Part shown: positions 105 through 6,616 of the stretch, one piece after another | Position numbering within the stretch: the stretch's first letter is position 1 | Layout of the letters: each line of letters opens with the position of its first letter | Made by a program: the position numbers and the translations under genes | Source of the DNA: Candida dubliniensis CD36 | Taxonomy: Eukaryota > Ascomycota > Pichiomycetes > Serinales > Debaryomycetaceae | Assembly (NCBI RefSeq): GCF_000026945.1 | Contig: NC_012861.1 | Location: forward strand, 1,116,001-1,180,000 | Direction: 5' to 3' | DNA: 64,000 nt | Notes under the pieces: generated by a model | The model's database searches: none | What the model was told of the DNA's origin: nothing | Seen by the model: only the letters and a program-made list of their open reading frames with translations

Positions 105-389
105 TTACACGGTGTTCATTTCAAAAAGAGAGCCCCAAAAGCTGTCAAAGAAATCAAGAAATTCGCCACTTTACACATGGGTACTACTGATGTTAGATTA
201 GACCCAAAATTGAACATTGCCATTTGGAAAAGAGGTGTTCAAGGTGTTGAAAATAGAATGAGATTAAGAATTTCTAGAAAAAGAAATGATGAAGAAGATG
301 CTAAAGAAAAATTGTTCGCTTACGTTGAACCAGTTATTGTCCCATCTACTAAAGGTTTACAAACCGTTGTTGTTGAAGATGATGAATAA
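105..389 (+). CDS. RPL31: Ribosomal protein L31 (eL31), last exon, 5' partial
   Basis: This is the large-subunit ribosomal protein eL31, near the peptide exit tunnel. The exon opens at 105 with residues [20 protein letters not shown] and continues to [10 protein letters not shown], closely matching yeast Rpl31. The preceding bases are intron: a perfect TACTAAC branch point lies at 82-88 and the acceptor TTCTTATTAG ends at 104, so the first exon (about 18 codons in yeast) lies left of the window. The ATG at 177 is internal (Met of LHMG), not the start. Codons are strongly biased, as in other ribosomal protein genes. Family identity is certain; the 5' exon cannot be seen. Confidence 0.95.
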
Positions 390-818
390 ATGATTTACTA
401 AATAAAAAAAAAAAAAAGAGAAGTTGATGGCATTAATAATGACATTGTTTTTTTTTTGTTTTTTTGTTTTTTATCATTTATTCAGGGGTTTATTTTAAAT
501 ATCACACATAGTTTGTATAATAATACGTAAAGAGAAAATAATCTTAAATTATTTCTGTTTCCAGGTTTAGGTAAATCATAAGAGTTATCCAATGACCCAT
601 AATCAGTAATAAACTTGAATACTCTAAAAATAGTGAATCCTGGTCGAACTACTACAACTACAATTAGTCTACATCAAATCTATCAACAATTGAAAAAAAA
701 AAAAAAAAGTGGAAAAATGTATATTTCAAATTACTAAACTAAATTAATAACCTACGAGTCTGTTAGTAAATCAATCTTCAATTTAAACTCTTTTCTTTTT
801 TTTTTGAGATATACTATT
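390..818. other. RPL31 3' flank
   Basis: There is no gene here. The stretch holds poly-T/A runs typical of a 3' UTR and terminator, and the branch point (762-768) and possible acceptors (near 752 and 739) of a putative minus-strand intron described with the snoRNA at 819-990. Confidence 0.6.
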
Positions 819-990
819 AATGAATGATCAGTGTAACTATGACTATTAAATGTACCAAATCATTACAAATTAAAGTCGAATTGACATACCAAAACGGTAA
901 TCAATCTAACGAAAAGACATTATATCTTCCCCTTGTTCCAATTAATGGGTACGAAAATTTTTAAAAAATTATCATCATAATTCATTCATT
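819..990 (-). ncRNA. Candidate intronic C/D box snoRNA guiding 25S rRNA methylation
   Basis: On the minus strand a C box ATGATGA (978-972) and a D box CTGA (831-828) are enclosed by a perfect 9-bp terminal stem, AATGAATGA (990-982) with TCATTCATT (827-819). The bases just upstream of the D box, AGTCATAGTTAC, are exactly complementary to the universally conserved 25S rRNA block GTAACTATGACT, with one unpaired base before the box. Yeast 25S is 2'-O-methylated there (Cm2197, guided by snR76, as I recall); the five-base rule here points to the adjacent A. A donor GTATGT at 1044-1039 and TACTAAC at 768-762 suggest it is excised from an intron of a host with no evident ORF. At about 170 nt it is long for a C/D RNA. 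A 46-codon plus-strand frame (824-964) overlaps it and is probably spurious. Confidence 0.72.
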
Positions 991-1369
991 AATATATTTT
1001 TTTTTGAAATTTTGACAATGGTTATTATTATTAGTCTAACATACTGGTTGTTTCTTCTGTAAAAGTAATTGGATAGTAAGTAAAATTAAGATTAAATGAA
1101 ATGGTGTTGAAATTTTTTTTTTTTTTTTCTTCTTCTTCTTCTTCATCGCCTTTTTTGTTTTCTCTCGATGTTAAGATTCTTTGGTTTTTTATCGGGTAAA
1201 AAGAAAAAAAAAAAAAAAAACATAGGCAATTATTAGGGCTCACTAGACTACAAAACTAAACATGTTAAAGTAAGTTAATTCTAAATGCTCTATGTATTGT
1301 TTGAATTAAGCTAAAGAAATTATCTTCTGATATTGACATGGAAAAAATTACATGAAAAAAAAAAATAAT
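991..1369. other. Intergenic region with putative non-coding host exon
   Basis: No protein gene is visible. On the minus strand this would hold the first exon of the snoRNA host, ending at the donor GTATGT (1044-1039). A TTC-rich and poly-T block (1108-1145) and a poly-A run (1205-1220) create a low-complexity minus-strand frame that is not a gene. Confidence 0.5.
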
Positions 1370-3139: not shown

Positions 3140-6100
3140 ATGCCATCCGTTGCATCTTCCTCAAATGATGTTTCTATTTCACAGGAAGCTTTTGAGTCTG
3201 TTACAACCATTGCTAATGTTTCAATAATCAATGATCCTTCACTTAACCAATATGATACATTAGATATAGGTGATGAATTATTCTCCAAATTGTTCCCTAA
3301 AGAAGAAATAAATTCATCTACTCAAATCGTCAATAATAAATTTGTTTTAGTCAAGTTATTAGGTGCTCCTGATTATTTTAACAAATTTAGAATTATGAAA
3401 CTTCATGAAGTTCGTTATCAATTAAGAGAATCCATAGTGATTACAAATGATTCAAATTTAGTAAAATTTAATAATGATTCTTTGACTTTAAACAAAGCCG
3501 TCATAAAATCTATTGATTATGATGATATACCTAAATTATCACAAATATTTGTTTCTATACCTCATGAAATCTATCAATTATTACATGAAAAATCACCACA
3601 AGTTATAAAACAGAAATTTTTAACACAATTATTGGTTGATAATGGGAATGTTGTAAATGAAGGAGATTCGTTGAGATTAATTAATGGTACAGTCAATTTA
3701 TGTGAACCTTTGACTCAAGGTAGAGTTGAATACAATACCAATATTGTGTTGATTAATCAAAATGAAGATAAACCTAGTGAACAAGATAGCACCGATAATA
3801 ACAAAAATATCGATATAGAATACGAGCAAGATTTAGTCTTTGATCAAGATGAAAGTCTCGATTTGTCTGGTTACTTATCATCAAGTTTACAATTTGACCA
3901 ATTTACAAAATCAGACAAGCTCAATAGATTTAAAGTTGGTCCATTACCACAAAAATTCAATATCGATGATTTACCTCTGAATTGGAAAAAAGATGATACA
4001 GAATTGTTTGTATTTATTAATAATATTGACTTTATTAAATTGGGATTTCCAATATTCAATGGTGATTTAGTGAAAGTTAAAACAGGGACAGAAACAGTTG
4101 TTGTTAGAATATTCACATTTACTGAACCTCAAAACAGTTTCAAAATTGGCACGGTTTATATGTCTCCAATTTTATTGATAAATCTTAAATTACAAAGTGA
4201 TTCCTATATTGAATTTGATCCGGTCACCCAATTAGATACATTATCTAACACAATCCCTATTGCAGAATCAGTGACAATTTCAAGAGTTAGTTCACAAATC
4301 ACCATGGATAAAACTTATCAACAGAGTTTTTTCTCGAGTTTAAAGACAACTTTGAGTACTCGATTAAAATGTGTCAAGCAGGGTGATTATCTCCCCGTTG
4401 TAATTGACACTGTTTTGGCGAAAACTATGTTTGATAATTTGATTGAAGATGGTAATGACAATGAAGAAACTGCTGGGTCTGGTGATGGCATTGATGCTAT
4501 TCCTATTGGTAATCCAGATGCTGTTGCATGGTTTAAGATAACCGAGGTAAAGGGAGCAAATAGTATTGACACCAACCAATTTCTCATTGATCCTTTGAAA
4601 ACAATGCTAGTATCATCTGGTGTTGAAAGCATTAGATTACCACAAAATTCATTTGTGAAATGGTATCAATATTTGAATTTACCCCCAATTTTTAATTACC
4701 AAGAAGGAACAAATTTCAAATATGCTCAAGAGTTTAAGAAAACTTTATCTACTTGTCTTTCCTCCAAGATTAATTTGAAAACTTCGATATTGTTGACATC
4801 AATGAGTAGAGGTATTGGTAAAACAACTCTTGTGAGAAACTCATGTATAGAATTGGGTTTGAATTTAATTGAGTTGGATTGTTTTGATTTGTTGAACCCA
4901 GGTCAAGAATTGAAAACTATTGGGCTTTTAACAGGTAAAATAGACAAGTTAATTGCTAATGTTCAAAGTACTTCTTCATTCCATGTCATTTATCTCAAAC
5001 ATATTGAAAACTTGTGTCCCAAAACTGATGAAAATGATCAAAACTCAAGTATTTTCACATCATTGTCTTTAAAAATTATTCAAGTATTGCATGATTATTT
5101 GAAAAATTATCCAAATCTAGTGGTAGTTATGAGTTGTAATGATTATGATAAACTTAATGATAATTTGAAATCAATAATAAAATTCACCATAGAATTCACT
5201 GTTCCTAGTGAAAATGAAAGATTAGAAATTTTTCAATTCTTAATTAACAATGAGAAGAATAAAAATTTTACCAAAGATATTAATTCTTATCCTTTCATAA
5301 TCAGAAAAGATATCAATTATAAAAATCTTGCATTGCAATCTGCTGGGTTAACTCCACGAGACTTGATATCCATCATTAAAAAATCGAAAAAATTGGCCAT
5401 CAAACGATTAATCAAATTATCAAAAGATTCCAAGATTTCCATTCAAAATATAGTTAACATTGGTAATGGCGGGGTGATTAATTGGGTACCTGATGATTTT
5501 AATGCTGCTATCAACGAAGCACGTAATCAATTCAGTGATTCTATTGGTGCACCACGTATTCCTAATGTCAAATGGGAAGATATTGGTGGATTGGATCTTG
5601 TCAAAGATGAAATCTTGGATACAATTGATATGCCCTTGAAACATCCAGAATTATTTAATAATGGATTGAAGAAAAGAAGTGGGATTTTATTTTATGGTCC
5701 ACCAGGTACTGGTAAAACTTTGTTGGCAAAAGCAATTGCTACCAACTTTTCCCTTAATTTCTTTTCTGTCAAAGGTCCTGAATTGTTGAACATGTATATA
5801 GGGGAATCAGAAGCCAATGTTCGTCGTGTGTTCCAACGAGCTCGTGATGCCAAACCATGTGTTATTTTTTTCGATGAATTGGATTCAGTGGCACCGAAAA
5901 GAGGTAATCAAGGTGATTCTGGTGGAGTTATGGATAGAATTGTATCCCAATTATTGGCTGAATTAGATGGTATGAGTAGTGAAGGTGGAGATGGTGTATT
6001 CGTTGTTGGTGCTACTAATAGACCGGATTTGTTAGATGAGGCCTTATTAAGACCTGGTAGATTTGATAAAATGTTATATTTAGGTATTTCAGATACCGAT

Positions 6101-6616
6101 GAAAAACAAACAAAAATATTGGAAGCTTTGACTAGAAAATTCAAATTGGGAGATAATGTGAATTTGCAACAAGTTGCTGCCAAATGTTCATTTACATTTA
6201 CTGGTGCTGATTTCTATGCCTTGTGTTCTGATTCGATGTTGAATGCTATGACTAGAGTTGCTAATGAAGTTGATGAAAAAATAAAACAATACAATTTGCA
6301 ATTGAGCCAACAAGGAAAAGAAAAAGTAAATACAAGATGGTGGTTTGATAATGTTGCTACTGAAAAGGATACGACTGTTTTGGTGCAAATGGAAGATTTT
6401 ATCAAGGCACAAAATGAATTGATACCTTCTGTTTCTGCTGAAGAGTTGCAACATTATTTGAGAGTTAGAGAAAATTTTGAAGGAGGTAAAGAAAAGGCAA
6501 AACAACAACAAGAGCAACAAATCCAGAATCACGAAGATCAGCAAGATACCCCTGAGATCATCCATGAGGAGGATTTATTAAATAATGTTCTCAAGTTAAA
6601 TGGTAATGGCCATTAA
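3140..6616 (+). CDS. PEX6: Peroxisomal AAA ATPase Pex6
   Basis: Pex6 forms with Pex1 the hexameric AAA+ motor that extracts the import receptor Pex5 from the peroxisomal membrane for recycling. The 1158-residue frame has the family layout: a long divergent N-terminal half, a degenerate first ATPase domain (SRGIGKTT near residue 556) and a canonical second one (Walker A GPPGTGKT near 853, Walker B VIFFDELD near 908, then GATNRPDLLDEALLRPGRFD). The C-terminal tail is Q/E-rich. Length is in the usual range. CTG codon 280 (3977-3979) is in frame and would be read as serine in this clade. The gene is convergent with MDJ2. Confidence 0.95.
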   Translation: MPSVASSSNDVSISQEAFESVTTIANVSIINDPSLNQYDTLDIGDELFSKLFPKEEINSSTQIVNNKFVLVKLLGAPDYFNKFRIMKLHEVRYQLRESIVITNDSNLVKFNNDSLTLNKAVIKSIDYDDIPKLSQIFVSIPHEIYQLLHEKSPQVIKQKFLTQLLVDNGNVVNEGDSLRLINGTVNLCEPLTQGRVEYNTNIVLINQNEDKPSEQDSTDNNKNIDIEYEQDLVFDQDESLDLSGYLSSSLQFDQFTKSDKLNRFKVGPLPQKFNIDDLPLNWKKDDTELFVFINNIDFIKLGFPIFNGDLVKVKTGTETVVVRIFTFTEPQNSFKIGTVYMSPILLINLKLQSDSYIEFDPVTQLDTLSNTIPIAESVTISRVSSQITMDKTYQQSFFSSLKTTLSTRLKCVKQGDYLPVVIDTVLAKTMFDNLIEDGNDNEETAGSGDGIDAIPIGNPDAVAWFKITEVKGANSIDTNQFLIDPLKTMLVSSGVESIRLPQNSFVKWYQYLNLPPIFNYQEGTNFKYAQEFKKTLSTCLSSKINLKTSILLTSMSRGIGKTTLVRNSCIELGLNLIELDCFDLLNPGQELKTIGLLTGKIDKLIANVQSTSSFHVIYLKHIENLCPKTDENDQNSSIFTSLSLKIIQVLHDYLKNYPNLVVVMSCNDYDKLNDNLKSIIKFTIEFTVPSENERLEIFQFLINNEKNKNFTKDINSYPFIIRKDINYKNLALQSAGLTPRDLISIIKKSKKLAIKRLIKLSKDSKISIQNIVNIGNGGVINWVPDDFNAAINEARNQFSDSIGAPRIPNVKWEDIGGLDLVKDEILDTIDMPLKHPELFNNGLKKRSGILFYGPPGTGKTLLAKAIATNFSLNFFSVKGPELLNMYIGESEANVRRVFQRARDAKPCVIFFDELDSVAPKRGNQGDSGGVMDRIVSQLLAELDGMSSEGGDGVFVVGATNRPDLLDEALLRPGRFDKMLYLGISDTDEKQTKILEALTRKFKLGDNVNLQQVAAKCSFTFTGADFYALCSDSMLNAMTRVANEVDEKIKQYNLQLSQQGKEKVNTRWWFDNVATEKDTTVLVQMEDFIKAQNELIPSVSAEELQHYLRVRENFEGGKEKAKQQQEQQIQNHEDQQDTPEIIHEEDLLNNVLKLNGNGH

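Follow-up and report, generated by a model that had tools for sequence, protein, structure and literature searches.

The minus strand beside RPL31 in Candida dubliniensis CD36 raises the question of whether it encodes a box C/D snoRNA and, if so, which one, which rRNA base it would guide to modification and how it would be released from its host. A sequence-only reading of the DNA had proposed an intron-encoded C/D snoRNA in a non-coding host next to RPL31, and our follow-up of the window (the whole 64,000-nucleotide stretch that was analysed) supports this as a prediction. The best explanation, which we hold with high confidence, is an snR63 orthologue, predicted as a box C/D RNA that a short non-coding transcript carries in its intron. 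The minus-strand locus is very probably a real and ordinary member of this known family, and very probably intronic. The predicted RNA and its neighbour are made up as follows.

815..994, minus strand: snoRNA body with terminal stem and box C/D, predicted snR63 orthologue (Rfam RF01259 match, boxes, stem)
972..978, minus strand: C box ATGATGA (sequence)
828..831, minus strand: D box CTGA (sequence)
982..994, minus strand: 5′ arm of the terminal stem, 13 bp (sequence)
815..827, minus strand: 3′ arm of the terminal stem, 13 bp (sequence)
105..389, plus strand: last exon of RPL31 (eL31), convergent neighbour (Pfam; exon start by eye)

The RPL31 exon was recognised by Pfam PF01198 (L31e) on 177-386, with an E of 2.8e-15. 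Both boxes of the RNA were found on the minus strand as had been claimed, the C box at 978-972 and the D box at 831-828. The terminal stem is perfectly paired, as had also been described, but is 13 rather than 9 bp long, positions 994-982 pairing with 827-815 through 13 of 13 Watson-Crick pairs. RUGAUGA and CUGA boxes joined by a terminal stem, as in a box C/D RNA, are present at 815-994, giving a predicted snoRNA of 172 nt with the 9-bp stem or 180 nt with the 13-bp stem. When the whole window was shuffled 100 times with its dinucleotides kept, both strands being scanned and G-U pairs allowed, a C box, a D box and a stem of at least 9 bp came together at 0.03 chance sites per shuffled window. 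The predicted snoRNA folds with a z of −3.2, and one of 200 shuffles folded as well.

Rfam was searched in E-value mode over the region 600-1300, up to an E of 10. Ranked by E-value, snR63 (RF01259) came first, matching 979-826 on the minus strand (E 2.5e-5) and covering the full model from 1 to 255. Its score of 27.5 bits does not reach the curated gathering cut-off of 50 for snR63; the boxes, stem and guide are all present. With curated cut-offs, an Rfam scan of the whole window listed a tRNA alone, without this locus. Agreement with RF01259 is concentrated largely toward the 3′ end, where 20 consecutive letters, AUAGUCAUAGUUACACUGAU, taking in the guide, an extra A and the D box, are those of the consensus and run to the last but one letter of the match. 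This extra A and a length near 170 nt had been called unusual in the sequence-only reading; both are normal for snR63: the A belongs to the RF01259 consensus, and the model runs to 255 positions, against about 172-180 nt for the C. dubliniensis RNA.

A genome-wide search with RF01259, in which 27 of 1034 candidates were scored, listed another locus, and 815-994 was not among the matches listed. The other match (G000:C4:1471418-1471535, L002; 20.5 bits, E 0.016) spans model positions 69-204 only, without the guide end; the pattern of guide plus D box is absent from it, and it is probably due to chance. RF01259 also matched 5 of 14 prokaryote control genomes below the cut-off, and none above it, so weak matches to this model are common.

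The predicted target follows from the guide, which lies next to the D box.

833..844, minus strand: guide AGTCATAGTTAC, 12 nt, predicted to pair with GTAACTATGACT, a block in helix 69 of 25S (sequence)

We take this block, quoted from the sequence-only reading, to be a conserved stretch of 25S, and the 12-nt complementarity is that to the quoted block; a search of the genome assembly for the 25S block stretch gave 0 matches. One A (832) separates the guide from the D box. In the 14.6-Mb genome (8 contigs) the guide followed by 0-3 nt and CTGA has one exact match, at this locus, a single-copy count that holds for this exact pattern. Across the 100 dinucleotide shuffles of the window, both strands included, the 12-nt guide arose once, and guide, A and D box together 0 times.

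Five bases upstream of the D box, by the five-base rule, stands the T at 836, whose pairing partner is the second A (A4) of GUAAC. Among all positions of the 12-nt block, A4 of GUAAC alone fits the spacing of Am2256, Psi2258, Psi2260 and Psi2264, and the letters expected downstream of the block also fit Psi2266, m5C2278, Am2280, Am2281 and Gm2288. The helix 69 sites named in passages of PMC8307265 and PMC8393311 are Am2256 (snR63), Psi2258, Psi2260, Psi2264 and Psi2266. The predicted target is very probably the 25S A equivalent to yeast Am2256, the known snR63 site in helix 69, and both the identity with the consensus and the register show a guide and D box of the snR63 family aimed at Am2256. 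The sequence-only reading had derived by the same rule the A next to Cm2197: that the base is an A was borne out, but the register makes this A the equivalent of Am2256, and the C beside it is therefore not Cm2197. Sequence elements, Rfam match and register are all direct observations.

The snR63 of S. cerevisiae (RF01259) has the same design, with C/D boxes, the guide AGUCAUAGUUACA-CUGA, the same extra A and a long body, and its target is likewise given as 25S Am2256 in helix 69 in passages of PMC5199042 and PMC8307265. Deletion of snR63 in yeast, as described in part of PMC5199042, took away one third of the Am peak in which Am2256, Am2280 and Am2281 fall together, the last two being the two snR13 sites that share this peak with the snR63 site. 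The helix 69 bridge, within which Am2256 lies, touches the A- and P-site tRNAs (passages of PMC8307265 and PMC8393311), and losing one or two helix 69 modifications is reported to have little or no effect in yeast (a passage of PMC8393311). The present result establishes which guide RNA this is in C. dubliniensis and what it probably targets.

In human the snR63 orthologue is U46 (SNORD46). In an excerpt of PMC2656528, human U46 is marked (I), which we read as intronic, and it is likened to the present RNA by description alone. A table row for Neurospora crassa CD33, excerpted from PMC2780460 with its headings out of view, reads 26S-Am2218, 13/0, D, snR63, U46, Intron; CD33 would thus share with the C. 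dubliniensis RNA a D-box guide to the equivalent A and an intronic position. The row also gives 102, which we read as a length in nt, and this comparison too is by description alone.

The intronic position in C. dubliniensis is predicted from splice signals on either side of the RNA.

752..1044, minus strand: predicted host intron, 293 nt (donor, branch, AG by sequence only)
739, minus strand: alternative predicted 3′ end of the intron, 306 nt (second AG)
1039..1044, minus strand: 5′ splice site GTATGT (sequence)
762..768, minus strand: branch site TACTAAC (sequence; branch A at 763)

The donor and branch site that had been said to bracket the RNA are both in place (1044-1039 and 768-762), and the candidate 3′ splice sites are the AG at 753-752 and that at 740-739, with 11 nt from branch A 763 to the G of AG 753-752. 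Donor, branch and AG flank the snoRNA as the sequence of an intron-encoded snoRNA would have them. The listed frames include no long one that spans the locus on the minus strand, the largest there being a 70-codon GTG frame (1243-1031) that crosses the donor. From what is generally known of intronic snoRNAs, the host would be transcribed and spliced from 1044 to 752 or 739, the intron lariat would be debranched, and exonucleases would trim the RNA to the stem shielded by box C/D proteins. The 12-nt guide beside the D box would then pair with helix 69 of 25S, and fibrillarin (Nop1) would methylate the A five bases from the D box, the equivalent of yeast Am2256. We infer host transcription, splicing and 25S methylation in C. 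dubliniensis from these elements.

The snoRNA could instead be real but transcribed independently, with incidental splice signals, as appears to be the case for snR63 in S. cerevisiae: the yeast RNA is marked (M) in an excerpt of PMC2656528, which we read as monocistronic, whereas the C. dubliniensis copy lies in a predicted intron. The splice signals alone are not rare, because the window, both strands included, has 6 pairs in which TACTAAC follows GTATGT by 40-500 nt, of which 2 are at the snoRNA locus and use one branch site. We nevertheless regard independent transcription as unlikely. The snoRNA lies centrally in the predicted intron, with 66 nt from donor to C box and 65 nt from D box to branch A, and central placement between donor and branch is the usual layout of intronic snoRNAs. 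The Thr-Tyr codons of a relative, P0004 (see below), fall at about the expected place and are compatible with the donor, a weak point judged by eye. Candida practice also speaks for an intron: passages of PMC5033589 give about half of Candida snoRNAs as intronic, most C/D ones included, and transcripts without coding potential as hosts of most snoRNAs. Candida snR50, described in the same passages, is a C/D RNA in the intron of just such a transcript, but has another guide and lies at another locus. In that part of PMC5033589, snR39 and snR59 are the sole yeast C/D RNAs named as not found in the C. parapsilosis group; because the missing list names these two only, the survey implies that snR63 is present there, unnamed. 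The intronic snR63 orthologue would be one more instance of a known pattern, in which a snoRNA that is free-standing in baker's yeast lies in the intron of a non-coding Candida host.

A second consensus donor, GTATGT at 884-889 on the minus strand, lies inside the snoRNA and upstream of the same branch site, a point against the main reading. It is very unlikely, though conceivable, that this internal donor (889-884) competes with the outer one and that the choice between them tunes the amount of snR63 and the methylation of helix 69; the one observation in favour is that the motif is present. Under such competition, splicing from 1044 would release the snoRNA, and splicing from 889 would cut through it.

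The plus strand opposite the snoRNA holds an open 46-codon frame (824-964), which could in principle encode a real small protein, the RNA signals being coincidence; we find this highly implausible. A protein search with the frame gave 4 matches from 4 candidates, one of which, P0001, is the frame of the window itself. P0002 (63 aa) matches all 46 residues without a difference. For P0003 and P0004 the identity is 90%, extending over 65% and 63% of the query respectively, and about 30 residues are in common with the frame before they diverge. The DNA of these relatives was viewed solely as back-translated predicted proteins, and the places of gaps, set by a home-made score, are approximate. In this view P0002 aligns to the window without a gap and continues reading where the window frame has a stop, but P0003 and P0004 align only with a gap of one base near the start of each. 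Downstream, P0004 is three bases short and in frame; P0003 is two short, and this further shift puts it out of frame, with a C-box frame that differs from that of P0002 and P0004. P0002, P0003 and P0004 all end differently, yet the letters for the C box and stem stay compatible in 3 of 3. The guide region is reached by P0002 alone, where it is identical to the window frame, and P0003 and P0004 do not extend to the guide or D box. No Pfam domain or source name was found for any of the four proteins. A conserved RNA accounts for the pattern among the relatives better than a conserved protein does, although a protein would fit P0002 and the downstream stretch of P0004 as well. With a protein, the guide, boxes, stem and Rfam match would have no explanation. 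Translation and conservation of this frame had been named in the sequence-only reading as something that would refute its RNA; in P0003 and P0004 the frame is not intact. The small protein was rejected on the broken frame of these two, with P0002 keeping the frame and P0004 in frame downstream.

To an snR76-like guide aimed at Cm2197 or the base beside it we give almost no credence: a C does adjoin the predicted A in the target block, but the search for an snR76-like Rfam model that had been suggested, run on the minus strand, returned snR63 as the best match, the 13 matches listed up to an E of 10 do not include snR76 (a further match to a related family, overlapping and lower in score, being left out unnamed), the A fits 2256 alone within the block and the register excludes 2197, and Cm2197 is given as a separate site with its own guide, snR76, in passages of PMC5199042 and PMC8307265. 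On the Rfam match and the register test we rejected this identity.

An argument for a snoRNA promoter was also considered upstream of the predicted host.

1233..1240, minus strand: AGCCCTAA, candidate Tbf1 site upstream of the host (weak; motif match)

We take ARCCCTAA to be the Tbf1 site motif. The window contains it 8 times where 3.9 would be expected, and as many as 8 were reached in 4 of 100 shuffles; a motif count of this kind is not evidence on its own, and the argument was dropped. PMC2926782 mentions a related motif, ACCCTA, in one passage.

Further along the window, a tRNA at 1370-1456 on the minus strand scores 45.8 bits in Rfam against a cut-off of 29 and is absent from the whole-window scan list. 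Its anticodon loop, CTAATAA, reads by eye as Ile-AAT, about 13 extra nt after the loop are probably a tRNA intron, and ARAGORN assigns it no amino acid. An element at 1679-2616, next to a tRNA, has inverted arms at 1825-1897/2504-2576 (99%) and 1679-1719/2576-2616 (93%) and a 159-codon minus-strand frame (1823-2302) with no Pfam match at E up to 0.001; it is possibly a retroelement remnant. A PEX6-type AAA ATPase gene (Pfam AAA and PEX6_4th) occupies 3140-6613 on the plus strand.
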